NCBI GenBank assembly: GCA_014236755.1
Contig: JACCKY010000007.1
Location: 1 to 48,622, forward strand
Source: Candidatus Petromonas tenebris
GTDB lineage: Bacteria; Bacillota; Clostridia; Peptostreptococcales; Caminicellaceae
Direction: 5' to 3'
Length of the DNA: 48,622 nt
The notes beneath the pieces are model-generated. The model ran no database searches. It saw nothing but the letters and a program-made list of their open reading frames with translations, and was not told the DNA's origin. A program made the translations under genes and the position numbers. Below, piece by piece: positions 3,564 to 26,070 of the stretch (position 1 is the stretch's first letter; each line of letters starts with the position of its first letter).

Positions 3564-3622
3564 TATACTTAAAAAAGTTATGGAGTGGATGTAAACTAGA
3601 AAACATTGCATACATTCATACA

Positions 3623-3651: not shown

Positions 3652-3658
3652 ACTAACA

Positions 3659-3683: not shown

Positions 3684-3707
3684 AAATACAAATTAGGAGG
3701 AATATAA

Positions 3708-4151: not shown

Positions 4152-4159
4152 TATATACA

Positions 4160-9437: not shown

Positions 9438-9469
9438 AAAAATCTATGGACCTGAGTCCATAGATTTTT
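9438..9469. terminator. Bidirectional terminator between two convergent genes
   Basis: The inverted repeat AAAAATCTATGGA-cctgag-TCCATAGATTTTT has A and T runs on its two sides. It can stop transcription both from the PucR gene (plus strand) and from the cyclase gene (minus strand). Confidence 0.85.
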
Positions 9470-10161
9470 TATTCTTCCAGTAATGCAACAGCTCTTATAG
9501 GAGAACCGGAGCCCCCCCTTATCTTTAATGGAAGACCTATGTATAAAAATCTCTTATTCACAACCTTATCTAAATTACATAGGTTTTCTGTATTAGTTAT
9601 GTGATATTCACCGCAGATTAAGTGTCCGGAAAAATCTAAATCCTTGGGATGGTCTATGGCTGGAGCGTCTACTCCTATATTTACTACTCCTTTTTCAGCC
9701 AGCCATTTGGCAGCCTCATAGCTAAGTCCCGTATACTCAGTTTGCCACTTATCAGTACCAAAATTTCTATCATAATGTGCTGTATAAAGTAAAACTATAT
9801 CCCCCTTCATAATTTCCTGACCTGATTTTTTTACAGCTTCCTCTAAATCTTTAGGTTCGATATAACGGTTTGAAGGTATATAGGATAAATCTATGCAGAT
9901 AGCACTTCCCCAAAAATACTCCATAGGCATTTTGTCTATAGTTGCTCCCGATGGATTATACTCCCATACTGCATCACTATGGGTTCCTCCATGCTCGCTT
10001 ATGAGAAGATTTCTTGCAGAAAACCCCAGTGTTTTACTACCCGTCTTTTGCATATTCTCTTCATGGGTCATATTCACCATTATAAATGTTGGTTGGTGCA
10101 TTGGAAATACTGACATACCCTGAAAAATTTCCTGAGAAAGATCAATAAGTCTTAAACCCAA
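9469..10161 (-). CDS. Cyclase-family metal-dependent hydrolase
   Basis: About 230 residues, with the HGGTHSDA form of the HxGTHxDxP metal motif seen in kynurenine formamidases, isatin hydrolases and related cyclase-family amidases. Members hydrolyse amide or lactam bonds using Mn or Zn. A TTG at 10161 is preferred because AGGGAGG lies seven bases upstream; the ATG at 10179 would precede that site. It is divergent from the microcompartment operon and shares its upstream region. A lactam-opening enzyme is exactly what the 4-imidazolone step of xanthine fermentation needs, so it is one candidate for imidazolonase. That is inference; another amidase role is equally open. Confidence 0.8.
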   Translation of the reverse strand: MGLRLIDLSQEIFQGMSVFPMHQPTFIMVNMTHEENMQKTGSKTLGFSARNLLISEHGGTHSDAVWEYNPSGATIDKMPMEYFWGSAICIDLSYIPSNRYIEPKDLEEAVKKSGQEIMKGDIVLLYTAHYDRNFGTDKWQTEYTGLSYEAAKWLAEKGVVNIGVDAPAIDHPKDLDFSGHLICGEYHITNTENLCNLDKVVNKRFLYIGLPLKIRGGSGSPIRAVALLEE

Positions 10162-10486
10162 TAAAATTCCTCCCTTCATCTTAAATGTATATATACATTT
10201 AAAGATTTTATTCTAAAAACCTTTGTAAAAACTACACAAAAATAGCCATGTTTCATTCTAAAAGTAAAATGGTATTCATAGGATTTATATAGAAGAATTT
10301 AATGTAAAATCCTTATGGAAAATATATAAAAACAAGCACAAAATCATTCTGAAAATATACTATTGTTCATAGAATCTATACAAAGGGCATTCTTGTCTTC
10401 TATAGAAAAAATATAAATGAGATAGAAAATAAAAAATATTTTTAAAATTTGGGCAAGTAAAAATTAAGCATGAGGAGGGTATGTCT
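10162..10486. promoter_or_regulatory. Divergent intergenic control region of the purine operon
   Basis: A 325-base AT-rich gap separates the divergent cyclase gene from the 14-gene operon and must hold both promoters. Short motifs recur: TTCATTCT (10252), ATTCATAG (10273), ATCATTCT (10342), TTCATAGA (10367) and GCATTCTTG (10388). They could be binding sites for the PucR-type protein. I see no clear -35/-10 pair, riboswitch or ORF in it. Confidence 0.4.
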
Positions 10487-11395
10487 ATGTCTGATGAAAA
10501 AAAGTATATTTTAGCCGTTCCAAACTTTAGTGAGGGAAGGCGAAAGGAAGTGATAGAAGCCGTAGTTAATCAGGTTAGAGATGTGGAAGGTGTAAAACTT
10601 GTAAGCTATGAACCAGAACATGATTTTAATAGAACTGTTATAACCGTGATTGGTGAACCTGAACCACTTAAGAAAGCCCTTATAGACATGGCAGGTAAAA
10701 GCTATGAGCTTATAAATATGGAGGAGCACTCAGGCACTCATCCAAGGATTGGAGCACAGGATACTATACCGGTTTTCCCTTTTAAAAACATTACTATAGA
10801 AGAATGTAAAGAGTTCATTGAAGAGTTGGCAGAGGAATTATATGCAAAGTATGAAGTACCAATTTACTTTTCAGGGATAAACGCAAGGTGTGAAGAGAGA
10901 AAAGCTTTGTCCTTTATTAGAAAGGGACAGTATGAAGGATTAAAAAAGGTTGCCCATACAGAAGAAAGAAAGCCCGATATAGGACCAGCTGCCCTTCATC
11001 CTACAGCAGGAGCTACAATTTTAAGTGCCGATTACGAAGGACTTACAGCTTATAATATTTTTTTAGATACGGAAAACCTTGAAATTGCAAAAAAGATAGC
11101 AAAGGCAGTGAGAGGACCAAGCGGTGGTTTTTCAACTGTTAGGTCTGTAGGAATTAAATTCCCTGAAAGGGAAGGCGTAGTAGTATCTATGAATATGTTT
11201 GACTGTGGAAAGACTCCTCTGTACAGGACATTTAACTTTGTTAAGCAGGAGGCTGCAAGATACGGTATAGCAGTTACGGGATCAGAAATTGTTGGACCAG
11301 TTAAACTCGATTATCTACTTAATTCTTTAGAATATTTTCTGGGGTTAGAAGGCTTTGATAAAAGACAAATATTAGAAACCCATTTGATAGATTAG
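10487..11395 (+). CDS. ftcD: Formimidoyltransferase (glutamate/glycine formimidoyltransferase)
   Basis: About 302 residues covering only the two formiminotransferase subdomains of FTCD; the cyclodeaminase half is absent. Recognisable segments are the N-terminal VPNFSEGRRKEVIEAV, EHSGTHPRIGAQDTIPVFP and IGPAALHPTAGATI. The family transfers a formimino group from formiminoglutamate to tetrahydrofolate. In purine-fermenting clostridia the donor is formiminoglycine, and with no histidine-degradation gene nearby that donor is favoured here (inference). The ATG at 10487 is chosen over 10481 because GAGGAGGG is seven bases from it. First gene of the operon, 66 bases before fhs. Confidence 0.9.
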   Translation: MSDEKKYILAVPNFSEGRRKEVIEAVVNQVRDVEGVKLVSYEPEHDFNRTVITVIGEPEPLKKALIDMAGKSYELINMEEHSGTHPRIGAQDTIPVFPFKNITIEECKEFIEELAEELYAKYEVPIYFSGINARCEERKALSFIRKGQYEGLKKVAHTEERKPDIGPAALHPTAGATILSADYEGLTAYNIFLDTENLEIAKKIAKAVRGPSGGFSTVRSVGIKFPEREGVVVSMNMFDCGKTPLYRTFNFVKQEAARYGIAVTGSEIVGPVKLDYLLNSLEYFLGLEGFDKRQILETHLID

Positions 11396-11461: not shown

Positions 11462-13132
11462 ATGAAGACAGATGTTCAAATAGCCCAAGAGGCTAAGATG
11501 CTTCCTATAGTAGAAATTGGAGAGAGGTTGGGACTTGATGAAGATGAGTTAGAACTTTATGGAAAATATAAGGCAAAGATTTCACTGGATGCATACAAAA
11601 GACTTGAGGGTAGAGAAGATGGTAAACTCATATTAGTTACGGCTATAAATCCTACTTCAGCAGGAGAAGGTAAAACTACTACAAATGTAGGTTTAAGCAT
11701 GGGACTAAATAAGATTGGTAAAAAGGCCATAACTACCCTAAGGGAACCTTCCTTGGGTCCATGCTTTGGCGTCAAGGGGGGAGCAGCCGGTGGAGGATAT
11801 GCACAGGTAGTCCCAATGGATGATATCAATCTCCATTTTACGGGAGATATTCATGCAATAACTACAGCTAATAATCTTCTGGCAGCCCTCATAGATAACC
11901 ATATACATCAAGGTAATAACTTGAACCTCGACCCAAGAAGAATAACCTGGAAAAGGGCTCTAGATATGAACGACAGAGCATTAAGAGATATCGTTATAGG
12001 GTTAGGTGGTCGAGGCAATGGTGTACCTAGACAGGATGGATTTGATATTTCAGTTGCGTCGGAGATAATGGCAATACTTTGTCTTGCTACCAATATGGAT
12101 GATTTGAAAAGTAGACTTTCAAAAATGATTGTTGGATATACCTATGACAATGAACCCGTTACAGCAGGTCAATTGGATGCCACAGGAGCTTTAGCTCTGC
12201 TTCTAAAGGATGCTATAAAGCCAAATTTAGTTCAAACCTTAGAAAATACTCCTGCAATTATCCATGGAGGGCCCTTTGCAAATATAGCTCATGGATGTAA
12301 TTCAGTGATGGCGACAAAGACGGCACTGAAACTAGCTGATTATGTAGTAACAGAAGCTGGATTTGGAGCAGACCTAGGGGCAGAAAAGTTCTTTAATATT
12401 AAGTGTAGATATGCAGGATTAAAACCGAATGCCGTTGTGATAGTAGCCACAGTTAGAGCCCTCAAAAACCATGGTGGAGTATCTAAGGCTGAATTATCTC
12501 AGGAAAATATGGAGGCTCTAGCTAAAGGATTTGAAAATCTTGAGAAGCAGATAGAAAATGTTTCCAAGTTTGGGGTTCCTTCAGTTGTGGCATTAAATAG
12601 ATTTCCTACAGATACGGAAAAAGAATTGGAATTTGTGCAGGAAAGATGTAAGGAACTAGGAGTAAATGTAGTTCTATCAGAAGTATGGGCAAAGGGTGGT
12701 GAAGGTGGAACAGAGCTGGCAGAAAAGGTAGTAGAACTTGCTGAAGACAGGAAGTCAGGCTATAAGCCCCTTTACGACCTCGATCTGACAATAAAAGAAA
12801 AAATCGAAACAATAGCTAAGGAAATATATGGGGCAGAGGGAGTAGAATTTACTGTTAAAGCATTAAAGGAAATAGCTAAATATGAAAAAATAGGACTCGA
12901 TAAGCTGCCGATATGTATGGCAAAAACTCAATATTCTCTATCGGATAATCCTAAACTTTTAGGAAGACCTAAGGAATTTAAAATTACTGTAAGTGCCGTG
13001 AGAGCTTCAGCTGGAGCAGGTTTCCTCGTAGCCCTTACGGGAGACATAATGACTATGCCTGGTCTACCGAGGATACCGGCAGCAAATAAAATGGATATTT
13101 TAGAGGATGGAGAGATTATTGGGTTATTCTAA
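11462..13132 (+). CDS. fhs: Formate-tetrahydrofolate ligase
   Basis: A 556-residue enzyme interconverting formate, THF and ATP with 10-formyl-THF, ADP and phosphate. The P-loop [15 protein letters not shown] is near residues 62-76, and [20 protein letters not shown] and the C-terminal [12 protein letters not shown] are intact. The length is exactly typical. It follows the formimidoyltransferase in one transcript. The known purinolytic pathway runs this enzyme in reverse to make ATP from the C1 unit released as formate, so its placement here points to energy conservation. Needed between the two genes is a formimidoyl-THF cyclodeaminase, not present in the window. Confidence 0.96.
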
Positions 13133-13189
13133 CAAATGCGTCAAAGACGCCTTTGCATATTCTTAATTAAATTAGAGGAGGATTTATTT

Positions 13190-14605
13190 ATGACTTATGA
13201 TGTAATTATCAAAAATGCACGTATTCCTCAGGGAGATAACACAGTACTTACAAATATTTTAGTAAAAGATGAAAAAATCTCAGGTTTTACATTAGATGTA
13301 GAGGGATTAGATGCAAAGGAAATTATAGATGCTCAGGGACATCTTACTTTACCGGGATGCATAGACTCTCATACCCATATTAATGACCCGGGATTTACCC
13401 ATAGAGAAAACTTCTTAACAGGAACGTCTGCCGCAGCGAGCGGTGGAGTTACAACTATCGTAGATATGCCTTGCTGCTCTGTACCATCAGTGAGAAGCGT
13501 TGAAAATTTAGAACATAAACTGAATGCCATAAAGAATAAAGCCATAATCGATTATGGAATGTGGGGAGGAGTTACAGGCGAGGATGTAAGAGAAGGTTGG
13601 CTTCACAATGTAAAGGAACAGGCTGATTATGGAGTGCTTGCCTTCAAGGTTTATATGACTCCTTCAGTTCCTACTTATCCAAGAGTAACGGATCCAGAAA
13701 TGCTCGAGGCTTTTAGAGCAGTTGCTGAAACGGGTCTTCCTATAGGAATCCATGCAGAAAACTTTGCTATGTGTGATTTTTATGTTAAGAAGTTTCAAGA
13801 GGAAGGAAGAATGGACGGTCCAGCATGGGCTGAGGCAAGAATGCCTTTAGCTGAAAAGGTGGCTATAGAGCTTGGCATAAGCTTTGCAGAAGAAACAGGG
13901 GCAAGACTTCATATAGTTCACATGAGTACTGGCGTGGGAGCTAAATTGATTGGAGAAGCTAAGAAGAAGGGATTAGATGTCACAGCTGAAACTTGTCCCC
14001 ATTATCTCACATTGAACTATCAGGAAGCCATGACGGAGTTTAAACAGTTTGCTAAGATAGCTCCACCATTGAGAAGTAAAGAGGATAATGAAGAACATTG
14101 GAAAGCCCTTGCCGATGGAAGAATAGATTTCGTTGCAACGGATCATGCCCCCTATGAGATTCCTACAGAGAAAGAAGCAGAAGGAATGAATATATGGACT
14201 GCATTTCCAGGTATTCCGGGAGTGGAAACCATGGTGCCTATATTAGTAAGTGAAGGTTATAACAAAGGAAGAATATCTTTAAGCAGATTGGTTGAAGTTT
14301 TATGTACAAATCCTGCCAAACACTACGGACTATACCCTAAAAAGGGTTCTATGCATATAGGCTCAGATGCTGACTTTACAATAATAGATCTTGATAAGGA
14401 ATGGACCATTGATAAGGATAAAATGTACACAATGGCTAAGTATACTCCGTTCCATGGATACAAATTAAAGGGTAAACCTGTTAAGACAATTGTTAGAGGC
14501 AAACTCGTTTACGATGATAATTTAGGCATAGTTGGTCAGGAAGGATATGGACAGTTTGTAAGAAGACAAAGTATTCAAAAGCTCGACAAGGTTATTAAGT
14601 ATTAG
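13190..14605 (+). CDS. Allantoinase/dihydroorotase-family ring hydrolase (candidate xanthine amidohydrolase)
   Basis: A 471-residue cyclic amidohydrolase with a binuclear metal site: His61 and His63 (DSHTHINDPG), the carboxylated lysine Lys153 (AFKVYM), histidines in IGIHAENFA and LHIVHMSTG, and Asp318 (FVATDHAPY). It is closest in look to allantoinases. ATG 13190 is used, eight bases after AGAGGAGG; an in-frame upstream extension lacks a site. No allantoin-forming gene is near. The surrounding genes fit xanthine fermentation, where the first step hydrolyses xanthine to 4-ureido-5-imidazolecarboxylate, a cyclic amide opening of this type. That assignment is inference; allantoinase or hydantoinase remains possible. 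A roughly 30-residue C-terminal tail ending in RRQSIQKLDKVIKY could be a targeting helix. Confidence 0.85.
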   Translation: MTYDVIIKNARIPQGDNTVLTNILVKDEKISGFTLDVEGLDAKEIIDAQGHLTLPGCIDSHTHINDPGFTHRENFLTGTSAAASGGVTTIVDMPCCSVPSVRSVENLEHKLNAIKNKAIIDYGMWGGVTGEDVREGWLHNVKEQADYGVLAFKVYMTPSVPTYPRVTDPEMLEAFRAVAETGLPIGIHAENFAMCDFYVKKFQEEGRMDGPAWAEARMPLAEKVAIELGISFAEETGARLHIVHMSTGVGAKLIGEAKKKGLDVTAETCPHYLTLNYQEAMTEFKQFAKIAPPLRSKEDNEEHWKALADGRIDFVATDHAPYEIPTEKEAEGMNIWTAFPGIPGVETMVPILVSEGYNKGRISLSRLVEVLCTNPAKHYGLYPKKGSMHIGSDADFTIIDLDKEWTIDKDKMYTMAKYTPFHGYKLKGKPVKTIVRGKLVYDDNLGIVGQEGYGQFVRRQSIQKLDKVIKY

Positions 14606-14652
14606 TAAGGCGATTACAGATGAATTTAAAATTATATTGAGGAGGATTTTTT

Positions 14653-15255
14653 ATGCCACGACATGCCATTGTGATAATAGATATGCTTAATGATTTTGTA
14701 GGAGAAAAGGCTCCCTTAAGATGTCCAGGGGCCGATGGGATAGTTCCTAATCTTCAAAGGTTAATAGAGTGGGTAAGGCAGAGAGAAGACGATGATATCC
14801 ATCTGGTTTACATTCAGGAAGCCCATAGGAAAAACGACGCTGACTTTAGAGTTAGGCCTGTACACGCAGTAAAGGGAACCTGGGGATCTGATTTTATTGA
14901 GGAACTTTATCCACAGGAGGATGAATATATAGTTCAAAAGAGAAGACACAGCGGATTTGCTTACACTGACTTAGATCTTTATTTAAGAGAAGAAAATATT
15001 GATACAGTTGTAGTTACGGGCGTATGGACAAACGTGTGCGTAAGGAGCACTGCATCCGATGCTCTATATCATGCATATAAGGTTATTACCTTAAGTGATG
15101 GTTGTGCTTCGAAAACTGAAGAAATGCACGAGTACGGCTTAAAGGATTTAAGCATATTTACAAAGGTAATGACTATAGATGAATATATTAATGCATGGGA
15201 AAATGGAGAAGACCCATGGATTGGTGGAGGAGATAGAGAAAATAAAGTTGAATAG
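14653..15255 (+). CDS. Isochorismatase-family cysteine hydrolase (candidate ureidoimidazole-carboxylate amidohydrolase)
   Basis: A 200-residue hydrolase with the family triad: Asp10 (IIDMLNDF), Lys96 (VQKRRHSGF) and nucleophile Cys129 (GVWTNVCVRSTASDA). Relatives include nicotinamidase, N-carbamoylsarcosine amidase and ureidoacrylate hydrolase, the last two removing a carbamoyl group as ammonia and CO2. That is the chemistry required to turn 4-ureido-5-imidazolecarboxylate into the 4-amino compound, the step after xanthine opening, and the gene directly follows the ring hydrolase and precedes the decarboxylase pair. The family is certain; the substrate is inferred from order and chemistry. 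Confidence 0.87.
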   Translation: MPRHAIVIIDMLNDFVGEKAPLRCPGADGIVPNLQRLIEWVRQREDDDIHLVYIQEAHRKNDADFRVRPVHAVKGTWGSDFIEELYPQEDEYIVQKRRHSGFAYTDLDLYLREENIDTVVVTGVWTNVCVRSTASDALYHAYKVITLSDGCASKTEEMHEYGLKDLSIFTKVMTIDEYINAWENGEDPWIGGGDRENKVE

Positions 15256-15270
15256 ATGAGGATTGATACT

Positions 15271-15828
15271 ATGAGAATAGTAGTTGGTATGACGGGAGGT
15301 AGCTGCTCACTATATGGAGTGGCCCTCCTTAAGGCACTTGAACAGCTTGATATTGAAACACACCTTGTGGTATCTAGGATGGGACGATATGTTGCTAAAC
15401 ATGAATGTGATATGGATCTGGATGAACTTAAAACTATGGCAGCCTATTTCTATGAGATAGATGATTTGGCAGCTCCGGTGGCAAGTGGGTCCTTTAAAAC
15501 AGATGGAATGATTATTATCCCTTGTTCCATGAATACCTTGGGCGCAATTGCAAGCGGACTAAGTATAAACCTTATTCACAGGGCTGCTGATGTAACTATA
15601 AAAGAAGGAAGAAGACTAGTTTTAGTTCCCAGAGAAACACCCTTAAATGTAATACATCTTGAAAATATGCTTAGGCTTGCTAAGGCAGGTGTTAGGATAC
15701 TCCCAGCTGCACCGGGATTTTATCATAAGCCTCAGACTATAGGAGATTTAGTGAATATAATGGTGGGGAGGGCCCTAGACCAACTGGGAGTAGATAATGA
15801 TTTATTCAATAGATGGGGGAAAAAGTAG
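15271..15828 (+). CDS. ubiX: UbiX-like flavin prenyltransferase
   Basis: About 185 residues, opening MRIVVGMTGGSCSLYG and containing PCSMNTLGAIASGLSINLIHRAADV and VLVPRETPLNVIHL, all standard for UbiX/Pad1. It prenylates FMN to supply the cofactor of UbiD-type decarboxylases. The ATG at 15271 is chosen because it gives the normal family N-terminus with GAGG upstream; the earlier ATG at 15256 abuts the previous stop. The next gene is the matching UbiD, so this is a dedicated cofactor-enzyme pair inside a purine operon, not part of quinone synthesis. Confidence 0.93.
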   Translation: MRIVVGMTGGSCSLYGVALLKALEQLDIETHLVVSRMGRYVAKHECDMDLDELKTMAAYFYEIDDLAAPVASGSFKTDGMIIIPCSMNTLGAIASGLSINLIHRAADVTIKEGRRLVLVPRETPLNVIHLENMLRLAKAGVRILPAAPGFYHKPQTIGDLVNIMVGRALDQLGVDNDLFNRWGKK

Positions 15829-15867
15829 TTTACAGGTTGCGGATAATGGGCTATAGGGGATGATGAA

Positions 15868-17217
15868 ATGGAAAGACAGATGTTAAGGGCTGTGATGGAA
15901 AAGTTAATGGAAGCGGATCGGATTTTAGTTTGCGATAAATCGGTTGACCCAAAATTTGAACTTGGAGCGGTATTGAAGTATTTTAAAAATAAAAAGCCTG
16001 TATTATTCAATAATGTTAAGGGAAGTAATGTGCCTGTAATTGGGGGAATGTTTGGAGATAGGGAAATATTTTATAGGATGCTGAAGATAAGCCATGAAGA
16101 GCGTATATTTAAATTTATGGATGCGGTAGCAAATCCTAAGCCTGCAAAACTCCTTGATAAGGGTCCCATAAAGGAGAATATAATAACGAGAAACATAGAT
16201 ATTACCAGAATGTTTCCCATACCTACCTTTCATGAAAAGGATTCATCCAGCTTTATAACAGCAGGTATTGTGGTCATAAAAGACCCTGAAACGGGAAAAA
16301 GATATACTGCCGTAAGAAGGCTGCAGGTAAATGGAAGGGACAGATTGAATATATTAGTTGCGTCTCCTATGTTGAAAAATCAAATCGAAAGACTAAGGGA
16401 GAGAAAGAAAGATTTAGAGGTGGCCGTTATATTAGGTTATGATTATAGATTTCTTTTAGCATCACAATTTAGCAGTGAACTTTATGGAGTAGACAAGTAT
16501 GAGATAGATAGTGCCTTAAGGGGAGAGCCCTTAGAACTAGTAAAATGTCAAAGTGTTGATCTGGAAGTGCCGGCCTATGCTGAGATAGTAATGGAGGGAG
16601 TTATACCTTATAACAAATTGAAAACAGAGGGTCCCTTTGGAGAACTGATGGGATATTACGGAGGAGTAGCTGATCATCCTACAATAGAAATAAAGACAGT
16701 AATGCATAGAAAGGATCCAATTTTACAAGTGTCTTTCCCCTGTAGAGAAGAACATCTTTCAAATGGATTAGTGAGGGAAATGGAACTATATATGCATGTA
16801 AACAAATTTGCAGAGATAAAGGATGTAAACGTAACTATAGGTGGAGGGTGCAGATTTCACGGTATTGTCTCAATTAATAAAAAGCTTGAAGGAGAGCCTA
16901 AAAGTGTACTGATAGGTGCATTGGGAAGCAGCAAAGATATTAAGCATGTCATAGTTGTAGATAAAGATGTGGATATATTTGATGGAGACGATGTAGAGGG
17001 AGTCCTTGCCACTAGAGTGCAGGGCTCAAAGGATATAGTGATTGTACCTAGTGCCTTAGGATCGGGACTGGACCCTTCCCATAATATACAGGAGGTTACG
17101 GACAAGATAGGCATTGATGCAACAAAACCTATTGGAGAAGAAGGCGTAAAATTTGAAAAGGCAAGGATACCTGGATATGAAAATATCGATATTGAAAAAT
17201 ATTTCCCCAATTTTTAG
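15868..17217 (+). CDS. UbiD-family prenyl-FMN decarboxylase (candidate 4-amino-5-imidazolecarboxylate decarboxylase)
   Basis: A 449-residue UbiD-fold protein with the conserved cofactor-region arginines (YTAVRRLQVNGRDRLNI) and the acidic EGPFGELMGYYGG segment that holds the catalytic glutamate. Known members decarboxylate unsaturated or aromatic acids by prenyl-FMN chemistry. In the classical clostridial pathway 4-amino-5-imidazolecarboxylate is decarboxylated to 4-aminoimidazole, and this is the only decarboxylase in the operon. It lies between the upstream hydrolases and the shell genes, 18 bases before the first BMC-H. No UbiD with this purine-derived substrate is known to me, so the activity is a prediction. 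Confidence 0.9.
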   Translation: MERQMLRAVMEKLMEADRILVCDKSVDPKFELGAVLKYFKNKKPVLFNNVKGSNVPVIGGMFGDREIFYRMLKISHEERIFKFMDAVANPKPAKLLDKGPIKENIITRNIDITRMFPIPTFHEKDSSSFITAGIVVIKDPETGKRYTAVRRLQVNGRDRLNILVASPMLKNQIERLRERKKDLEVAVILGYDYRFLLASQFSSELYGVDKYEIDSALRGEPLELVKCQSVDLEVPAYAEIVMEGVIPYNKLKTEGPFGELMGYYGGVADHPTIEIKTVMHRKDPILQVSFPCREEHLSNGLVREMELYMHVNKFAEIKDVNVTIGGGCRFHGIVSINKKLEGEPKSVLIGALGSSKDIKHVIVVDKDVDIFDGDDVEGVLATRVQGSKDIVIVPSALGSGLDPSHNIQEVTDKIGIDATKPIGEEGVKFEKARIPGYENIDIEKYFPNF

Positions 17218-17235
17218 AGGTAAGGAGGGGAGGAA

Positions 17236-17502
17236 ATGAGGCAGGCTATAGGTTTTTTTGAAGTAAGAAGTATGGTTGCTGCCATAGAAGCTGCGGATAC
17301 AATGCTCAAGGCTGCTGATGTAAAGATAAAGGATTTCAATTTAGTTGGTTCCGGAGTTATTTCCGTTGTCATTGAAGGCGAAGTAGCTGCTGTAAAGGCT
17401 GCCATTGAAAGTGCTGAGGTAACTGCAGGTAAGATGGCTGAGATAATATCAATAAATGTAATTCCAAGACCAAATGAGGAAGTAGATGGACTATTTGGCT
17501 AA
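17236..17502 (+). CDS. Bacterial microcompartment hexameric shell protein (BMC-H) 1
   Basis: An 88-residue single BMC domain: RQAIGFFEVRSMVAAIEAAD at the start, a VGSGVIS pore-loop region, VKAAIESA and a VIPRPNEEV ending. Such proteins form hexamers that tile the facets of polyhedral compartments. The start is preceded by GGGGAGGA. It is the first of three BMC-H genes in this operon, directly after ubiD. Its pore loop differs from those of copies 2 and 3, so its channel may pass different metabolites. Confidence 0.95.
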   Translation: MRQAIGFFEVRSMVAAIEAADTMLKAADVKIKDFNLVGSGVISVVIEGEVAAVKAAIESAEVTAGKMAEIISINVIPRPNEEVDGLFG

Positions 17503-17517: not shown

Positions 17518-17877
17518 ATGAGTAATCAGCTGACTAAAGTTATTATGGAGAGCATTATAGATAGATGTTCAAATACTAGCAAAAATAACGATAGAGTAAA
17601 CCTTAAAAATAATGAGGAAGATATCATAAGGAATATAATTCATAAGGAAACTAAAATAGAGTTTAAAAAAGAAACACCACAAGATACCAAAGTTACAGCA
17701 GGAAAAGAGCCTAGAAACTATGTCACACTGGATGAACTTTTTTCAAAATATAAAAAGTCAGATGAAAAGCTAGAAACAAAAGCTAAACAGGATTATTCAA
17801 GTAAAGGAACAAAGAAAGTTAAACTCGATGATATAGTTCCAAAGGTTTCCTTAGCGTCAATTGGAAAGAAAAGATAA
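17518..17877 (+). CDS. Unknown lysine-rich protein in the microcompartment operon (119 aa)
   Basis: No family recognised. The protein begins MSNQLTKVIMESIIDRC, which could form a short amphipathic helix. About 90 residues of charged, low-complexity, probably disordered sequence follow (many K, E, D, N), with a LDELFSKYKKSD patch near 72 and a basic C-terminus. It sits 15 bases after BMC-H 1 and 20 before BMC-H 2, in step with both. A similar MSN-plus-helix opening occurs in the flavoprotein at 18659. Position and composition suggest a cargo adaptor or scaffold that ties enzymes to the shell, as disordered proteins do in carboxysomes; this is a hypothesis. Confidence 0.75.
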   Translation: MSNQLTKVIMESIIDRCSNTSKNNDRVNLKNNEEDIIRNIIHKETKIEFKKETPQDTKVTAGKEPRNYVTLDELFSKYKKSDEKLETKAKQDYSSKGTKKVKLDDIVPKVSLASIGKKR

Positions 17878-17897: not shown

Positions 17898-18263
17898 TTG
17901 TTAAATGCAGCACTTGGACTTATTGAAACAGTAGGATTATCAGCGGCTGCAGCTGCCCTTGATGCTGCTGCAGATACTGCAGACGTAAAGCTTGTGGGTT
18001 ATGAGAAGGTTATAGGGGCTGGGAAATCTGTAAGTGTAACTATAAATCTAGCCGGGGATGTGGCAGCTGTTAGAGCGGCGGTAGATTCAGGAGTAATTGC
18101 TGCTAATAAAGTAGGAAGAGTTTTATCATCCAGGGTGATACCAAGACCTCACAGTGATGTTCAAAAGTTAATAGATCAGTTTAACAAAAATATTAAGAAG
18201 TCTCAAAATGAAGAAGATAGAAACAGGACAGACAAAGTAGAAAAAGAAGCAGAATTAGAGTAG
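17898..18263 (+). CDS. Bacterial microcompartment hexameric shell protein (BMC-H) 2, with C-terminal tail
   Basis: A 121-residue protein: a BMC domain (about 1-92, with LNAALGLIETVGLSAAAAAL, an IGAGKSVSV pore region and VIPRPHSDVQKLI) followed by a roughly 30-residue charged tail rich in K, E, N and D. The tail is absent from the other two copies and could face the lumen or bind cargo. The TTG start is supported by TTGGAGGTG seven bases upstream. Confidence 0.94.
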   Translation: MLNAALGLIETVGLSAAAAALDAAADTADVKLVGYEKVIGAGKSVSVTINLAGDVAAVRAAVDSGVIAANKVGRVLSSRVIPRPHSDVQKLIDQFNKNIKKSQNEEDRNRTDKVEKEAELE

Positions 18264-18315: not shown

Positions 18316-18591
18316 ATGAATCAAGCTTTAGGTTTAGTGGAAACTAAGGGTTTAGTAGGAGCTATAGAAGCGGCAGATGCAATGGTTAAGGCGGCCAATG
18401 TGACACTGGTAAGCTATGAAAAAATAGGCTTTGGATTAGTAACAGTTATGGTTAGGGGAGATGTTGGTGCAGTTAAAGCTGCTACAGATGCAGGTGCAGA
18501 AGCTGCACGGTCTGTTGGAGAGCTTCACTCTGTACACGTAATACCTCGCCCCCATTCAGAAGTTGAAAGAGTTATATTAAAGAGTGAATAA
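18316..18591 (+). CDS. Bacterial microcompartment hexameric shell protein (BMC-H) 3
   Basis: A 91-residue BMC domain and the most canonical of the three: [20 protein letters not shown], pore region [28 protein letters not shown] and [14 protein letters not shown], close to PduA-type facet proteins. It is probably the bulk shell component. GGAGGATATCAAC precedes the ATG. No tandem (BMC-T) protein is present in the operon. Confidence 0.96.
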
Positions 18592-18658: not shown

Positions 18659-19453
18659 ATGTCTAATAGAGAACTTATTAGAAACATTCTTAAAGATATT
18701 ACCGTAAAAGCAAGTAGTTCAAATAATAAAGATCGTACCAAAACCACAGGAACAAACTTAAATATAAAAAAAAGAGTTGTGGTTTTATTTACCGGGAGCA
18801 ATATTAAACTAGATGAGGTAATCAAGGGTTTAAGAAACTTAAAACAACAGGACTATCTATTAACGCTTTGTTTTTCAGAAAATGCTGAAAGGATATTAGA
18901 TAAGGACAGAATTCTAACCATAGTAAAGCCAGAAAAAGTTCTTTTGGAAAGAGATAGGGACCGGTATATGGATATCGTCAATTTTACCGATATGGCTATA
19001 GTACCTATACTTACTCAGAATACTTTGGCAAAGGTATCCACAGGAGTTCAGGATAATTTTATTACCATGTTACTTTGGCAGATACTGTGGCTAGGAAAGA
19101 AAGTGATTATAAATCCTGACTCGGCTTTAAGTAATAGAGGCACACACTGCAGAAATAGCAAAATGCTTAATTTAATTAAAAAACATGTAGATAAACTTAA
19201 AGAGTTTGGAGCAGACATTATACACGATCATGATTATTTAAACCATATAGAAATTAATATAGAAACAGGGCAAGATAACGAAAAAAGTTCTAGTAATGAA
19301 GAACAGAGCAAAGTAAAAGAGCTCATAACAGAGAGGGATATTTTGAATTTAGTAGGAAAGAAGGATAATCTATATCTAACAAAGGGAACTATAATAACTC
19401 CCTTAGCTAGAGATACGGCAAAGGAAAAGAAAATAAGAATAATTTACAGGTGA
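18659..19453 (+). CDS. Microcompartment-associated flavoprotein-like protein with EutQ/EutT-type C-terminal segment
   Basis: 264 residues in three parts. The N-terminus MSNRELIRNILKDITVK could form an amphipathic, encapsulation-type helix, followed by an S/N/K-rich linker. Residues about 40-190 look like a Rossmann-type flavoprotein domain (VVVLFTGSNIKLDEVIKGL at its start, a VNFTDMAIVPILTQNTLAKV segment, LGKKVIINPDSA). The C-terminus (ITERDILNL to GTIITPLARDTAKEKKIRII) matches the short module that opens EutQ and EutT proteins. Flavoproteins of this type recur in BMC loci without a firm role. It could bind FMN or prenyl-FMN for the UbiD enzyme, or be an adaptor. Domain calls are by eye. Confidence 0.7.
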   Translation: MSNRELIRNILKDITVKASSSNNKDRTKTTGTNLNIKKRVVVLFTGSNIKLDEVIKGLRNLKQQDYLLTLCFSENAERILDKDRILTIVKPEKVLLERDRDRYMDIVNFTDMAIVPILTQNTLAKVSTGVQDNFITMLLWQILWLGKKVIINPDSALSNRGTHCRNSKMLNLIKKHVDKLKEFGADIIHDHDYLNHIEINIETGQDNEKSSSNEEQSKVKELITERDILNLVGKKDNLYLTKGTIITPLARDTAKEKKIRIIYR

Positions 19454-19521: not shown

Positions 19522-19809
19522 ATGCAAACAGGGGTGGTTATTGGAACTGTTGTTGCTACAAGAAAGGATGAAAGACTTATTGGAAATAAACTGCTTTTAA
19601 CCCAACCGGTAAATATAAATAGAAAGCCCGTTGGTGAACCATTGGTTGCAGTAGATACAGTTGGTGCTGGAATAGGTGAGTTTGTTATATATACAAAGGG
19701 AACTGCAGCAAGATATGCAGCTAATAAAACCGATTCACCGATCGATGTTGCAATTATAGGAATTATTGACAGCATAGATATTTATTCCGACGTATTGGAG
19801 AGAGAATAA
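19522..19809 (+). CDS. Bacterial microcompartment pentameric vertex protein (BMC-P, EutN/CcmL family)
   Basis: A 95-residue EutN/CcmL-fold protein: TGVVIGTVVATRKDERLIGN, LLLTQPVN, VAVDTVGAGIGEFVIYTKGT, AARYA and a final AIIGIIDSID. Pentamers of this family cap the twelve vertices of the icosahedral shell, so with the BMC-H proteins a closed compartment can be built. ATG 19522 is used because AAGGAGAG is seven bases upstream; the longer frame from 19450 runs through a repeat. Only one BMC-P gene is seen. Confidence 0.95.
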   Translation: MQTGVVIGTVVATRKDERLIGNKLLLTQPVNINRKPVGEPLVAVDTVGAGIGEFVIYTKGTAARYAANKTDSPIDVAIIGIIDSIDIYSDVLERE

Positions 19810-19823: not shown

Positions 19824-21632
19824 TTGAACCCGCATGTAATAAAAAAGGCAATGGAATACAGACAACTTATAGATGTACTTATGTCCGATAAAGACTTCGC
19901 CGACATAGTTTTGTATGGAGGAAATATAATTAATGTATTGACAAAGGAAATATATAAATCCGATGTGGCAATTAAAGGCAAATACATTTTAATGGTAGGG
20001 AATGCCGAAAAACTCATAGGAAATGAAACTCTAGTTATAGATGTGGAGGGCAAATATATTTCACCGGGTTTCATAGATTCTCATATGCATTTTGAAAGCA
20101 GTATGTTGACTATATCTGAATTTTCCAGACTATCTATACCTTCGGGAACTACAACATTAGTAGCAGATCCTCATGAAATAGGAAATGCTTTGGGACCAGA
20201 AGGTATATTAGCTATGGCAGATGAAGCGGGAATTGTTCCCAACCATGTTCATCTAGTGGTGCCTGCATTGACACCTGACTGCCCAGAACTTGAAACCGCA
20301 GGGGTAGATATTACTTCAAAGGATATGGAGTTGCTTCTTAATTATAAAAATATAATTGGCATCGGTGAGCTGCAAGGGTTCAGTAATGCAAAGCATGTAT
20401 ATAGAAATACCCCAGAAATAATAACGGATCTCGTTGCATCTACCGTCTATGCTTCCAGCATGGGTAAAGTAGTGGACGGCAATGCTCCAGAGCTCTTTGG
20501 AAATGAGCTTGCAGCCCATATTATATCAACGGGGGGGAAGTGCTCCTGTCATGAAACCACAACAAAGGAGGAATGTGTTGAAAAACTGAGACAGGGTGTA
20601 TACGTTTTTATGAGGGAAGGGTCAACCCAAAGAAATATGGCCCAGTGCATAAGGGCTATAACAGAAGAAGGACTGGACTCTAGGAGAGCCATACTGGCTA
20701 CCGATGATATGGTTGCAGAAGATTTAGAAAAGCTGGGTCATATGAATGAAATAGTAAAAAGAACAATAGCCGAAGGAATAGATCCGGTAGAAGCCATACA
20801 AATGGTCACAATAAATCCTGCAGAATATTTTGGACTGGGAGACAGAGGCGTCTTAGCACCAGGTAAGCTGGCGGATATAGCCATAATAAGTGACCTTCGA
20901 AATATGACTGTGGACGCAGTGTTAATTGAAGGAAATTTAGTGGCAGCAAAGGGTGAAATGCTTATAGACATACCTAAATACGTTTATCCTGATAATGTCA
21001 AAAACTCTGTAAAACGGGGACTGATTAGTAAAGAAGATTTACAAATAAAGACAGAGGGAAATAGAGCAAAGGTTAGATGTATTGAACTTATTCCCGATCA
21101 GAACTTATCGGGAAGTCTAAAATTTGATATTCCAGTAAAAAATGGAGTAGCACTGCCCGATGTATCCCAGGATGTACTGGAAATAGCTTGTATAGAGAGA
21201 TATGGAAGAAATGGCAACATAGGTAAAGCCTTTGTAAAAGGGTTTGGTATGACAAGAGGTGCATTTGCAGAAAGCGTTGCCCATGATACACATAATATCA
21301 TAGTAGTGGGAACTAATCTAGAGGATATGACTATAGCCGTAAATAGGGTTATAGAAATAGGCGGCGGACTGGCTATAGCCAATAATGGCCGGGTCCTTGG
21401 TGAATTGAGGCTTCCTGTGGGTGGGCTTATAACAGATGAGTTAACCGGTAGTGAAGTTAGTAAAAAAATTAATGAACTCGAAACTATTGCCAAAGATAAA
21501 CTTGGATGTGGTGTTCATGCACCCTTTATGCATCTATCATTCCTTGCGCTATCTACTAGTCCTAAATGGAAGATCACAGATAAGGGATTAATAGATGTAA
21601 ATAATTTTGAAATTCTAGATCCTATATGCTGA
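19824..21632 (+). CDS. Divergent adenine-deaminase paralogue (candidate 4-aminoimidazole deaminase)
   Basis: A 602-residue amidohydrolase of the Ade family: DSHMHFESSM metal histidines, DPHEIGNALG, a GIGEL glutamate, SCHETTTKEE, REGSTQRN and a TDD aspartate segment, then the C-terminal Ade domain (AESVAHDTHNIIVVG). One conserved site differs. Adenine deaminases, including the second copy here, have DGHxP; this protein has DGN with Asn220 in place of the His. The N-terminus is about 25 residues longer than in the second copy. It lies in the shell operon between the BMC-P and permease genes. The xanthine pathway requires deamination of 4-aminoimidazole, an amino-azole chemically akin to adenine, so this substrate is proposed. 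TTG start after GAGGGGGG. Confidence 0.85.
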   Translation: MNPHVIKKAMEYRQLIDVLMSDKDFADIVLYGGNIINVLTKEIYKSDVAIKGKYILMVGNAEKLIGNETLVIDVEGKYISPGFIDSHMHFESSMLTISEFSRLSIPSGTTTLVADPHEIGNALGPEGILAMADEAGIVPNHVHLVVPALTPDCPELETAGVDITSKDMELLLNYKNIIGIGELQGFSNAKHVYRNTPEIITDLVASTVYASSMGKVVDGNAPELFGNELAAHIISTGGKCSCHETTTKEECVEKLRQGVYVFMREGSTQRNMAQCIRAITEEGLDSRRAILATDDMVAEDLEKLGHMNEIVKRTIAEGIDPVEAIQMVTINPAEYFGLGDRGVLAPGKLADIAIISDLRNMTVDAVLIEGNLVAAKGEMLIDIPKYVYPDNVKNSVKRGLISKEDLQIKTEGNRAKVRCIELIPDQNLSGSLKFDIPVKNGVALPDVSQDVLEIACIERYGRNGNIGKAFVKGFGMTRGAFAESVAHDTHNIIVVGTNLEDMTIAVNRVIEIGGGLAIANNGRVLGELRLPVGGLITDELTGSEVSKKINELETIAKDKLGCGVHAPFMHLSFLALSTSPKWKITDKGLIDVNNFEILDPIC

Positions 21633-21672: not shown

Positions 21673-22992
21673 ATGTCAAGTAATACCAAAACAAATAGCA
21701 GTTTTTTGGAGAAAACCTTTAGACTTTCAGAACACAAGACTGACACAAAGACTGAAATACTAGCAGGAATAACTACCTTTATGACAATGGCATATATACT
21801 AGTTGTAAATCCGATTATACTGAGTAATACGGGCATGGATAAGGGAGCCTTGTTTACGGCTACATGTCTTGCTGCAGCCCTTGCAACATTTATAATGGCA
21901 TTTATTGCCAACTACCCCTTTGCTTTAGCACCTGGTATGGGACTTAATGCATTCTTTGCTTTTACCGTGGTACTAGGGATGAAATATTCTTGGCAGTTTG
22001 CATTGACAGCAGTGCTTATAGAGGGGATTATATTCATAATACTTACTATGTTCAATGTACGTGAGGCCATAATAAATTGTATTCCTATAAATATTAAACA
22101 TGCAGTAAGTGTAGGGATAGGACTTTTCATAGCATTTATAGGATTATCGGGAGCTAAAATCGTAGTAGATAGTCCAGCAACATTAGTTACCTTTGGCAGT
22201 GTAAAGGATCCAAATGTAATTGTAGCACTGTTTGGATTAGTTATTACCGGAATACTGCTTGCTAAGGGTGTAAAAGGAGCATTATTATTGGGGATATTGA
22301 TATCTACCGCTGTGGGTATACCTTTAGGGGTAACTCCTATGCCAAATAAAATTGCAAGTATGCCTCCATCACTGGCACCAATAGCTTTTAAATTTGAATT
22401 TAGCAGAGTATTTTCAGTAGATATGTTAGTGGTTATTTTTACATTTCTCTTTGTGGACCTTTTTGATACCCTTGGAACTCTTGTTGGAGTTGCATCAAAG
22501 GCTGATATGCTTGACGAAAAGGGTCAGCTTCCAAGGGCTAAGCAGGCATTATTGGCTGATGCTATAGGCACTACCTTTGGTGCACTGGTAGGAACAAGTA
22601 CAGTTACTACATACGTTGAAAGTGCTTCAGGAGTTGCAGAGGGAGGAAGAACGGGCCTCACATCCTTCACAACGGCCGTTATGTTCGTTATAGCACTCTT
22701 GTTTTCCCCTATCTTAACTATAGTACCTGCAGCTGCAACGGCTCCAGCCTTGGTTCTGGTTGGTTTATTCATGATGTCACCTATACTTAAAATAAACCTT
22801 AATGATTTTACAGAAGCCATTCCAGCATTTTTAACAATAATCATGATGCCTCTTACCTACAGTATAGCTGAAGGGCTGGTATTTGGAATGCTTAGCTATG
22901 TATTCTTAAAGCTCTTTACAGGTAAAAGTAGAGATATATCTCCCGTAATGTATATAGTTTCCATTTTGTTTATAATTAAATTCTTTGTATAG
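21673..22992 (+). CDS. NCS2-family purine permease (AzgA/PbuG type)
   Basis: A 439-residue membrane protein with about twelve hydrophobic segments and the family signatures TEILAGITTFMTMAYILVVNP, ALAPGMGLNAFFAF, DLFDTLGTLVG and GTSTVTTYVESASGVAEGGR. AzgA/PbuG-type members import hypoxanthine, guanine or adenine with protons. As the last gene of the shell operon it supplies substrate for the pathway. A strong inverted repeat follows at 23005, closing the transcription unit. Confidence 0.9.
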   Translation: MSSNTKTNSSFLEKTFRLSEHKTDTKTEILAGITTFMTMAYILVVNPIILSNTGMDKGALFTATCLAAALATFIMAFIANYPFALAPGMGLNAFFAFTVVLGMKYSWQFALTAVLIEGIIFIILTMFNVREAIINCIPINIKHAVSVGIGLFIAFIGLSGAKIVVDSPATLVTFGSVKDPNVIVALFGLVITGILLAKGVKGALLLGILISTAVGIPLGVTPMPNKIASMPPSLAPIAFKFEFSRVFSVDMLVVIFTFLFVDLFDTLGTLVGVASKADMLDEKGQLPRAKQALLADAIGTTFGALVGTSTVTTYVESASGVAEGGRTGLTSFTTAVMFVIALLFSPILTIVPAAATAPALVLVGLFMMSPILKINLNDFTEAIPAFLTIIMMPLTYSIAEGLVFGMLSYVFLKLFTGKSRDISPVMYIVSILFIIKFFV

Positions 22993-23324: not shown

Positions 23325-24653
23325 GTGAAGACTTTAAAAATAAAACAGGGTACTATAGTAACTATGAACAAAAAAAGAGAAATATTTACAGGTGATATTT
23401 ATATAGAAGATGGTAGGATTAGTGAAGTATCATCTGAGATTCAGAGAAGAGCAGATGAAGAAATATATGCAAAGGGTAAAGTAGTAATTCCAGGATTAAT
23501 TCAGACCCATATACATTTAACCCAGACATTATTCAGAGGTATGGCAGATGACATGGAGCTTCTTGACTGGCTCAGAAAAAGGATTTGGCCCTTAGAGGGA
23601 AACCATACTGTTGAAACTAATTATGTCTCTGCAAAGTTAGGAATAGTGGAGCTTATAAAGGGCGGCACTACTTCGATTATTGATATGGAAACAGTAAATC
23701 ATACGGAAGGAGCTTTAGCAGCTATAGAGGAAAGCGGCTTTAGAGCCGTAATAGGTAAGTGTATGATGGACTATGGCGAAGGAGTCCCTGATAGTCTGAT
23801 GGAAGATACACAGACCTCTATAGATGAAAGTGTTAGACTCTTAAAGAAATGGCATGGAAGGGGAAAGGGTAGGATTATATATGCCTTTGCTCCGAGATTT
23901 GTAGTTTCATGCTCAGAAAAGCTTTTAGTAAAGGTTAGGGATTTGGCAAAGGAATATGGTGTAATGATTCATACCCATGCTTCTGAAAATAGGGGAGAAA
24001 TAGAGTTAGTTCAAAGCGATAGGGGCATGAGAAATGTTGTATATCTGCATAAATTAGGAATGACAGGGGAAAATCTGATTTTAGCCCATTGTATCTGGTT
24101 GGATGATGAAGAGATGAAGATACTGGCCGATACGGGAACTAAAATATCCCATTGTCCTAATTCCAACCTAAAGCTTGCTTCTGGAATTGCCAAAATACCG
24201 GAGCTTTTAGATATGGGTGCCGATGTTTCCATAGGAGCTGACGGAGCACCTTGTAATAATAATCTTGATATGTTCAGAGAGATGAGAAGTGCTGCTCTTA
24301 TTCAAAAAGCCAGACTTCTTAATCCCACAACGATGCCCGCTGAAAGGGTATTTGAAATGGCTACCCTAGGCGGAGCTAAAGCAATGGGAATGGAGAAGAA
24401 ACTTGGCAGCTTAGAGCAAGGAAAAAAGGCTGACATTGCAATAATAAATCTAAGGACTATTCATAACAGTCCCTGCGGTGAAGACAATATAATACCACAA
24501 CTGGTATATTCCGCATCTGCTAATGATGTTGAAACTACAATAATTGACGGAGAGATTGTGATGAAGGATAGGAAGATGACCGCTATTAATGAAAGAAACA
24601 TTATTGAAGAGGCTAATAGATTAATAAAAAAACAGATAGAGAAAATAATTTAA
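23325..24653 (+). CDS. Amidohydrolase of the MtaD/guanine deaminase group
   Basis: A 442-residue metal-dependent deaminase: THIHLTQTLFRGMADD (HxH), THASENRGE, AHCIWLDDEE and SIGADGAPCNNNLDMF (catalytic Asp). The layout fits methylthioadenosine/5'-deoxyadenosine deaminases, SsnA-like and guanine-type purine deaminases. Placed before a Mo hydroxylase and adenine deaminase, it most likely feeds guanine or a related aminopurine into xanthine. HutI-like imidazolonases belong to the same superfamily, so a role as the missing 4-imidazolonase cannot be excluded. GAGGGGGATATCT precedes the GTG start. The repeat at 23158 lies in its leader. Confidence 0.82.
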   Translation: MKTLKIKQGTIVTMNKKREIFTGDIYIEDGRISEVSSEIQRRADEEIYAKGKVVIPGLIQTHIHLTQTLFRGMADDMELLDWLRKRIWPLEGNHTVETNYVSAKLGIVELIKGGTTSIIDMETVNHTEGALAAIEESGFRAVIGKCMMDYGEGVPDSLMEDTQTSIDESVRLLKKWHGRGKGRIIYAFAPRFVVSCSEKLLVKVRDLAKEYGVMIHTHASENRGEIELVQSDRGMRNVVYLHKLGMTGENLILAHCIWLDDEEMKILADTGTKISHCPNSNLKLASGIAKIPELLDMGADVSIGADGAPCNNNLDMFREMRSAALIQKARLLNPTTMPAERVFEMATLGGAKAMGMEKKLGSLEQGKKADIAIINLRTIHNSPCGEDNIIPQLVYSASANDVETTIIDGEIVMKDRKMTAINERNIIEEANRLIKKQIEKII

Positions 24654-24715: not shown

Positions 24716-25573
24716 ATGGGAGTAACAAGGGTGCTAAAGGCTTATAGCATAGAGGAAATATTGGATGTTATGGAAAAATATGGTGAAAAAGTAGAGTTGT
24801 TAGCTGGCGGAACGGATTTATTAGTAGATATTAGAGCAGGTAAAAATAAAGGAAGCGTAATAATAGATATCTCCGATGTCAAGGAAATGAAAAAGATAGA
24901 GATAGGTGAAGATGATATAGTTTTGGGAGCATTAACGACATTTACTGATATAGCCGAAAACGATTACTTGAAGGAAAATGTGACTGGATTATGGAAGGCT
25001 GCCAAGTCTGTAGGATCGCCCCAAATAAGAAATATGGGAACCGTTGGAGGAAACATATGTAATGGTTCACCGGCAGCAGATATAGTCCCCCCCTTATTGG
25101 TCCTTGATGCTAAACTAAACATAAAGAGCAGGTCAAAACAAAGAAAGATAAAACTTAAGGAATTCTATATGGAAAATGGAAGCAGAAATTTAAGGAGTGA
25201 TGAGCTATTATATAGTATTAGTTTTACAAAATCTAGGGATAAAAATATAAGGATAGGATTTGAAAAACTTGGACTTAGAAATGCATTGGCCATATCTAGA
25301 ATAAGCTGTTCGGTTTATGCTATTATAGGAGAAAATAATCGGATTGAAAATATTCGTATTGCATCGGGAGCACTGGGAAAGTATCCCTTGAGAGAATATG
25401 CTTTAGAAAAGTTTTTGAAAGATAAGAATTTAAATGATGGACTGATAGAAGAGGCGGCAGAAATATTTTCCCATGAAGTTAAACAGAGGCTTTCAGGAAG
25501 AAGTTCATGTCCATATAAAAAAGAGGCAGTAAAGGGAATCTTTAAAAAGGCAATTTCTTTTGAGGGGGAATAG
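24716..25573 (+). CDS. Molybdenum hydroxylase FAD subunit (xanthine dehydrogenase type)
   Basis: A 285-residue FAD-binding subunit of the CoxM/XdhB family. LLAGGTDLLVDIRAGKN and SPQIRNMGTVGGNICNGSPAAD form the FAD pyrophosphate sites, and the C-terminal CO-dehydrogenase-flavoprotein domain follows. It passes electrons from the iron-sulfur subunit to NAD(P) or another acceptor. The start follows AAAGGAGG. It lies two bases before the iron-sulfur gene and is the first subunit gene of the enzyme. Confidence 0.93.
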   Translation: MGVTRVLKAYSIEEILDVMEKYGEKVELLAGGTDLLVDIRAGKNKGSVIIDISDVKEMKKIEIGEDDIVLGALTTFTDIAENDYLKENVTGLWKAAKSVGSPQIRNMGTVGGNICNGSPAADIVPPLLVLDAKLNIKSRSKQRKIKLKEFYMENGSRNLRSDELLYSISFTKSRDKNIRIGFEKLGLRNALAISRISCSVYAIIGENNRIENIRIASGALGKYPLREYALEKFLKDKNLNDGLIEEAAEIFSHEVKQRLSGRSSCPYKKEAVKGIFKKAISFEGE

Positions 25574-25575
25574 AT

Positions 25576-26070
25576 TTGATTAATATAAAGCTTAATGTAA
25601 ATGGTAAGGATTATGATTTAGAGATAGAGGAAGATTTGAGACTTATAGATTTGCTGAGAGATAGACTGGGGTTTACGGGAACTAAAGAAGGATGTGGGGA
25701 AGGGGAGTGTGGAGCATGCACAGTAATACTTGAAGGAAAAACCGTAAATTCATGTCTTCTATTGGCAATCCAGGCCCATGGAAAAGAGATCACAACAATA
25801 GAAGGAATTGGGAAGGAAGATGATCTTCATCCTATCCAAGAGTCGTTTTTAGAAAATGGAGCTGTGCAGTGTGGCTATTGTATACCGGGAATGGTTTTGT
25901 CGGCAAAAGCATTACTGGATAAAAATAAAAACCCTACAAGAAAGGATATAAGGGAAGCCATATCGGGCAATTTATGCAGATGTACCGGCTATGAAAAGAT
26001 AGTTGACTCTATTGAAAAGGCATCTAAAATTTTGCAGCAAAGAGGGAGTGAATCCCATGAACAACTATAA
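25576..26070 (+). CDS. Molybdenum hydroxylase 2Fe-2S subunit
   Basis: A 164-residue electron-transfer subunit with two [2Fe-2S] clusters: a plant-ferredoxin set (CGEGECGACTVILEGKTVNSC) and the helical-domain set (QCGYCIPGM and NLCRCTGYEK). The TTG start at 25576 is supported by GAGGGGG eight bases upstream. It overlaps the next gene by 14 bases. The length is normal for XdhC/NdhS-type subunits. Confidence 0.95.
   Translation: MINIKLNVNGKDYDLEIEEDLRLIDLLRDRLGFTGTKEGCGEGECGACTVILEGKTVNSCLLLAIQAHGKEITTIEGIGKEDDLHPIQESFLENGAVQCGYCIPGMVLSAKALLDKNKNPTRKDIREAISGNLCRCTGYEKIVDSIEKASKILQQRGSESHEQL

Follow-up and report, generated by a model that had tools for sequence, protein, structure and literature searches.

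A UbiX/UbiD pair in a purine operon of Candidatus Petromonas tenebris and its predicted role in the decarboxylation of 4-amino-5-imidazolecarboxylate

The window analysed here, a stretch of 48,622 nucleotides from Candidatus Petromonas tenebris, carries a UbiX gene and a UbiD gene side by side, and it raises the question of which acid a decarboxylase of this family might act upon in such a setting. Very probably, judging from sequence comparison, the UbiX would supply prenylated FMN (prFMN) to the adjacent UbiD, and the latter would convert 4-amino-5-imidazolecarboxylate into 4-aminoimidazole and CO2 during the anaerobic breakdown of xanthine. The original prediction had proposed this decarboxylation and held it to be new; the predicted reaction is well supported by gene context, by co-occurrence across 198 genomes and by the UbiD tree, whereas its novelty did not stand. 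The window provides a further clear instance, as a predicted activity, of prFMN chemistry in purine fermentation, and the pathway, which removes purines without oxygen, bears on uric acid.

The operon and its predicted pathway

The UbiX/UbiD pair had been described as lying between purine hydrolases and shell genes, an arrangement borne out by the gene and domain calls at 13136-17502 (Table 1). Hydrolases do lie upstream; their purine role is an interpretation, as the first of them passes the NCBIfam allantoinase model TIGR03178 (383 vs a cut-off of 358 bits) and would be given an automatic name other than xanthinase. Over that name, we infer that it is a xanthinase, and 4-aminoimidazole is likewise proposed as the substrate of the protein encoded at 19824-21632 over its NCBIfam name, adenine deaminase. 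The similarity of the isochorismatase-family hydrolase to the BiuH/RutB model is far under cut-off. Downstream, the BMC1 gene starts 18 bp after the UbiD gene. The small protein encoded at 17518-17877, possibly a shell or cargo linker, has homologues in 4/69 named loci by tblastn (L033, L039, L040 and L045), and the putative product of 18659-19453, located among the shell genes and poorly conserved across loci, could handle flavin or prFMN. Within the xanthine dehydrogenase-like set, the molybdenum subunit is encoded in two pieces, by ORFs that overlap in different frames (26003-27325 and 27316-28317). This division seems to be widespread and not a sequencing error, because a single ORF spanning both halves occurs in only 4 of the 29 loci compared, including the outgroup L101.

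Table 1. Coordinates of the features discussed, in the window and in three comparison loci (M20/AbgT features)
Feature	Sequence	Position	Strand	Evidence
Cyclase/arylformamidase-like hydrolase, candidate 4-imidazolonase	window	9469..10179	-	PF04199; TIGR03035 under cut-off
Glutamate formimidoyltransferase-like, candidate formiminoglycine formiminotransferase	window	10481..11395	+	PF07837/PF02971; TIGR02024 318 vs 221 bits
Formate-tetrahydrofolate ligase	window	11462..13132	+	recognised by eye in translation, not by model scan
Allantoinase/dihydroorotase-like amidohydrolase, probable xanthine amidohydrolase (xanthinase)	window	13136..14605	+	PF01979
Isochorismatase-family hydrolase, probable 4-ureido-5-imidazolecarboxylate hydrolase	window	14653..15255	+	PF00857
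UbiX-family flavin prenyltransferase (predicted)	window	15271..15828	+	TIGR00421 241 bits vs cut-off 109; PDB 6m8v
UbiD-family prFMN decarboxylase, predicted 4-amino-5-imidazolecarboxylate decarboxylase (XauD)	window	15868..17217	+	Pfam, TIGR00148, 6h6v, clade
BMC-domain shell protein BMC1	window	17236..17502	+	PF00936
Small protein between shell genes	window	17518..17877	+	no Pfam family
BMC-domain shell protein BMC2	window	17898..18263	+	PF00936
BMC-domain shell protein BMC3	window	18316..18591	+	PF00936
Protein with partial UbiX-like Flavoprotein domain	window	18659..19453	+	PF02441 E 1e-11
EutN/CcmL-type shell vertex protein (ORF opens 19450)	window	19522..19809	+	CcmL/EutN models from residue 25, under their cut-offs
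Adenine-deaminase-like amidohydrolase, candidate 4-aminoimidazole deaminase	window	19824..21632	+	TIGR01178 495 vs 472.5 bits
Xanthine/uracil permease family	window	21673..22992	+	PF00860
5'-deoxyadenosine-deaminase-like; XauE of Ravcheev 2019 by gene order	window	23325..24653	+	NF005557 707 vs 522 bits
Xanthine dehydrogenase-like FAD, Fe-S and molybdenum subunits	window	24716..28317	+	model matches
M20 amidohydrolase/AbgT features	L095	15228-17951
M20 amidohydrolase/AbgT features	L092	7124-8653 and 15509-16696
M20 amidohydrolase/AbgT features	L094	2641-3792	-

The UbiX ORF as opened covers 15256-15828 (+) and encodes 190 aa. Its likely start is 15271 and not 15256: in the alignment with the solved UbiX 6m8v (E 7.6e-56), the match begins at residue 6 of the longer reading frame. 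Together with the GAGG preceding this second ATG, the alignment supports the start originally chosen. The product matches TIGR00421, a curated NCBIfam model at subfamily level. Elsewhere in the same genome (L002, contig C22, 3-476 and 1273-1872), a second UbiX is found near a 199-aa UbiD-like ORF that seemingly lacks its middle.

The UbiD has 449 aa, passes the cut-offs of Pfam UbiD_N, UbiD and UbiD_C, and scores 319 bits against the 245-bit cut-off of TIGR00148. Its nearest solved structure by sequence is HmfF (6h6v; E 3.2e-107, about 44% identical), which is also the nearest fold in a Foldseek comparison made with an AlphaFold2 model (E 3.5e-41). As that model has a mean pLDDT of 71.8, with residues 381-435 below 50, no pocket argument is drawn from it. 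The E254-R151-E259 network is present, each of these residues being kept in 25/25 rows of the purine-operon clade; R151 and E259 align with R155 and E266 of AnInD, and the third member was assigned on spacing, the invariant E254 lying five residues ahead of E259. A histidine of the HmfF type, H296, aligns in 24/25 purine-operon UbiDs, and the window UbiD has a gap where AnInD has its substrate-binding D169. These active-site residues do not fix the substrate; 4-amino-5-imidazolecarboxylate is proposed on the strength of context.

According to the predicted pathway, the xanthine ring would be opened by the allantoinase-like amidohydrolase and the ureido group then removed by the isochorismatase-family hydrolase. 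In the middle step, the UbiD would decarboxylate 4-amino-5-imidazolecarboxylate to 4-aminoimidazole, inside the shell or outside it, using a cofactor that UbiX would produce for its neighbour by prenylating reduced FMN to prFMNH2 and that would mature to prFMN-iminium. The adenine-deaminase-like enzyme would deaminate 4-aminoimidazole, and the cyclase-like enzyme would open the remaining ring to give formiminoglycine, the formimino group of which may pass to tetrahydrofolate. 4-Amino-5-imidazolecarboxylate may lose CO2 fairly easily without an enzyme; this would leave the need for prFMN unexplained, and it counts against the proposed role. That the UbiD mainly works the other way and carboxylates 4-aminoimidazole is scarcely credible: UbiD reactions are reversible, as documented for HudA and AnInD in the portions of the literature available, but the hydrolases, the purine permease and the formiminotransferase of the operon are all degradative in kind.

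Conservation, co-occurrence and phylogeny of the UbiD

A sample of 198 genomes of the order was searched with the UbiD and with the xanthinase, the latter query starting at the ATG at 13193. The UbiD query matched 50/198 genomes at E 1e-30 or better, 41 of them at 57-100% identity and the next at 38%; the xanthinase query likewise matched 50/198, at E 1e-80 or better, with 41 at 67-100% identity and the next at most 39%. The 41 genomes with a UbiD orthologue are identical to the 41 with a xanthinase orthologue, although these genomes are related to one another and do not amount to 41 independent events. UbiD and xanthinase share a contig in 39/41, 1.2-1.7 kb apart, and lie on separate contigs in the other two. 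A shell gene stands 16-105 bp from the UbiD gene in 41/41; since the shell query alone matched 92/198 genomes, it is adjacency, not presence, that ties the shell gene to UbiD.

A scan of named genomes (69 loci) gave a similar picture. Of the 65 loci that extend far enough, 64 have UbiX directly upstream of UbiD, and in 67/69 a shell gene lies within 500 bp downstream, so the UbiX-UbiD-shell arrangement is not due to chance; the exceptions are L093, with a partial UbiD match, and L101, a distant outgroup whose UbiD (36% identity) has no purine core at all around it. The closest UbiD relative found, with 77% identity, is that of L033. Xanthinase is present in 57/62 loci (missing from L071, L092, L094, L095 and L101) and the cyclase-like gene in 42/46 (missing from L037, L038, L097 and L101). 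The adenine-deaminase-like gene is near-universal (53/54 loci with enough downstream sequence) and, as candidate for the 4-aminoimidazole deaminase, is preferred to the 5'-deoxyadenosine-deaminase-like gene, an orthologue of which, >60% identical, occurs in 24/46.

The UbiD tree was built from 51 rows, comprising a chosen subset of the loci together with HmfF, AnInD, E. coli UbiD and other paralogues; AroY, VdcC, Fdc1 and HudA were left out. All 25 purine-operon UbiDs form one clade (support 100/100). HmfF and its kin (10 rows) make up a neighbouring clade (100/96), outside which the window UbiD falls, and these two clades join the AnInD pair at 91/92; the AnInD pair, on a long branch, joins HmfF weakly (83/63). 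In sequence searches, phenolic-acid UbiDs such as AroY and VdcC are more distant than HmfF. The expectation that the enzyme would stand apart from decarboxylases of aromatic acids agrees with the tree, in which the window UbiD has its own clade beside HmfF and away from E. coli UbiD, with AroY and VdcC absent from it. As an observation on the HmfF clade itself, one of its members, at L127 10186-13210, lies by an iron alcohol dehydrogenase and an aldehyde:ferredoxin oxidoreductase, as if oxidation of a furfuryl-type alcohol precedes decarboxylation.

Phenolic or acrylic acids are the substrates of most UbiDs characterised so far, and the UbiX/UbiD pair might on that ground serve an unrelated aromatic or quinone acid and sit in the operon by chance. 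This is very unlikely, given that the same 41/198 genomes carry UbiD and xanthinase, that the purine clade is apart from the remote E. coli UbiD and other paralogues, and that the only other UbiD match in the organism's own genome looks internally deleted. A quinone or phenolic-acid role was accordingly set aside on tree position and co-occurrence.

Decarboxylation of the purine-derived imidazole acid remains the preferred reading, and it gains from genomes that have the chemistry and no detected shell. When 398 genomes sampled from the phylum were searched with the UbiD profile, 61 gave a match at E 1e-70 or better, and the best of these loci were examined. In G361 and G436, which belong to a single genus and have an estimated completeness of 99% and 100%, the genes for UbiD, the isochorismatase hydrolase and xanthinase are neighbours, with UbiX elsewhere in the genome; their UbiDs (41-42% identity) fall inside the purine clade, and a search of both genomes for BMC-domain proteins gave no match. 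The UbiD therefore follows purine chemistry and not the shell, and a solely shell-linked role was set aside because of these two genomes. The comparisons thus connect UbiD with the breakdown of purines irrespective of the microcompartment.

Loci without a nearby xanthinase

Four loci, L092 (Synergistales), L094 (an uncultured member of the Oscillospiraceae), L095 (Neofamilia massiliensis) and L155 (G709), have no xanthinase nearby, although UbiX-UbiD-shell is retained in each, together with the genes for the adenine-deaminase-like and cyclase-like enzymes. Searches of the L094, L095 and L155 genomes, of which that of L094 is of uncertain completeness, gave no xanthinase orthologue and only partial matches of 30-42% identity; with three genomes of this kind holding UbiD and shell, the link between UbiD and xanthine is not absolute. 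A survey of the Neofamilia order gave UbiD matches (E 1e-90 or better) in 45 of 249 genomes; 40 loci were fetched, among which L155 and the L071-like L157 have no nearby xanthinase and L170, L171 and L180 are too short to tell. Two other candidates were rejected as xanthinase-less, namely L071, the genome of which (G839) has two xanthinase orthologues elsewhere, and L124 (G416), which has a xanthinase on the same contig.

What is carried instead of a xanthinase differs between loci. The M20 amidohydrolases of L092, L094 and L095 show 44-48% mutual identity; those of L092 and L095, the two that were scanned, pass TIGR01891 and have HmrA and a Xaa-Arg dipeptidase as nearest solved relatives. An AbgT-family transporter accompanies them in L092 and L095, and none was found in the L094 stretch. 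The three M20 loci occupy three places in the UbiD tree, corresponding to three changes, and a single clade was rejected (p 1.8e-70, for a group named post hoc). L155 gave no M20 or AbgT match and has instead a TRAP transporter and a 73%-identical isochorismatase hydrolase, the ureido-hydrolase homologue. The features noted in L155 lie at 360-4962 and 14589-16241, and they include another isochorismatase homologue that adjoins a membrane protein, a pair also present in L092. The 350-residue protein beside that homologue was considered as an alternative ring-opening enzyme and rejected, since it reads as a membrane protein, with a weak, below cut-off similarity to permeases and no solved relative.

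These modules suggest other routes to the same imidazole acid. It is conceivable, though we hold it only tentatively, that UbiX, UbiD, shell and deaminase form a portable module for 4-amino-5-imidazolecarboxylate with exchangeable front ends, these being M20 (with or without AbgT), TRAP plus ureido-hydrolase homologue, or xanthinase plus ureido hydrolase. An M20 front end, with an AbgT importer in 2/3 loci, might bring in the imidazole acid as an amide conjugate and cleave it, the conjugate being perhaps a carboxamide or an amino-acid derivative that stems from purine biosynthesis; the TRAP front end could take up ureido acid that others release. In that case, some 'xanthine' microcompartments would use no xanthine, and the shell would handle aminoimidazole or imidazolone; if confirmed, such loci would make the core from decarboxylation to formiminoglycine reusable with several inputs. 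Nothing on the M20/AbgT variant was found in the literature searched or in passages of the BMC catalogue, a scope outside which the supplementary locus diagrams and most subscription papers fall.

The same loci bear on the order of steps. Sequence cannot tell whether the UbiD acts one step earlier, on 4-ureido-5-imidazolecarboxylate, with the ureido group hydrolysed afterwards; both acids are imidazole-5-carboxylates of one pathway, and the isochorismatase-family gene adjoins UbiD. We nevertheless regard this order as unlikely, as L094 and L095, in the stretches read, hold UbiD and no ureido-hydrolase match, and as the available text of Ravcheev et al. 2019 (PMC6620236), in a prediction itself built on 1956 biochemistry, places carbamoyl removal third and decarboxylation fourth.

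Comparison with the Xau/BUF1 locus and other prFMN enzymes

With decarboxylation of 4-amino-5-imidazolecarboxylate as the preferred step, the window is a locus of the published Xau/BUF1 kind, an extra case of a known pathway and of low novelty. It contains BMC and vertex genes, ring-opening hydrolases, UbiD, formiminotransferase and xanthine dehydrogenase-like subunits. Tong et al. 2023 (Cell Chem Biol) reportedly characterised four hydrolases of different families and a prenyl-FMN-dependent decarboxylase, a set that resembles that of the window by description. The step, proposed in print in 2019, has reportedly been confirmed biochemically in that work. The clostridial xanthinase pathway gene cluster, which occurs in Clostridia and Bacilli, is credited to Tong et al. 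2023 in the accessible part of PMC12507026. Within the accessible literature, a search on the decarboxylation reaction with prFMN returned no paper.

The xanthine-utilisation (Xau) microcompartment locus of Ravcheev et al. 2019, as far as its available text goes, has Amet_4581 (XauD) as its sole decarboxylase, and its gene order is the same as that of the window as far as Amet numbers allow, by gene counting and not by sequences. In that text, Amet_4587 is given the opening of xanthine and Amet_4584 the imidazolone step. Our data favour the reverse, and for the deaminase they point to the adenine-deaminase-like gene in place of Amet_4572, a reassignment that rests on matching Amet genes to the window by gene order only; the cyclase-like gene is present in all four loci that have no allantoinase-like gene nearby, which fits the allantoinase-like protein being the xanthinase and the cyclase-like one the imidazolone-opening enzyme. 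The name BUF1 was given to this locus type in a 2021 human-microbiome survey (PMC8156839), and the BMC catalogue (PMC8217296), in the portion available, has one BUF1 locus in Maledivibacter halophilus, the species of L033, and L033 is probably that locus.

The proposal of a new substrate class for prFMN must be withdrawn in view of the 2019 XauD assignment and of the accessible accounts of UbiDs acting on five-membered heteroaromatic rings, namely HmfF (furan), HudA (pyrrole) and AnInD (indole). HudA, or PA0254, a pyrrole-2-carboxylate decarboxylase, applies prFMN chemistry to a five-membered N-heterocycle and gave 1.3% conversion of imidazole-4-carboxylate (PMC7976604, in its available part), so that an imidazole acid was already on record as a trace substrate for prFMN chemistry. 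It is a more distant UbiD than HmfF (phmmer E 6.2e-21). In the same source, a histidine of HmfF numbered H297, taken to be H296 of the 6h6v chain, is key to furan specificity. HmfF shares R151, E254, E259 and H296 with the window UbiD, but it belongs to a separate clade, 10/10 rows of which have H, P and E where the purine rows (24-25 of 25) have R150, S166 and K210.
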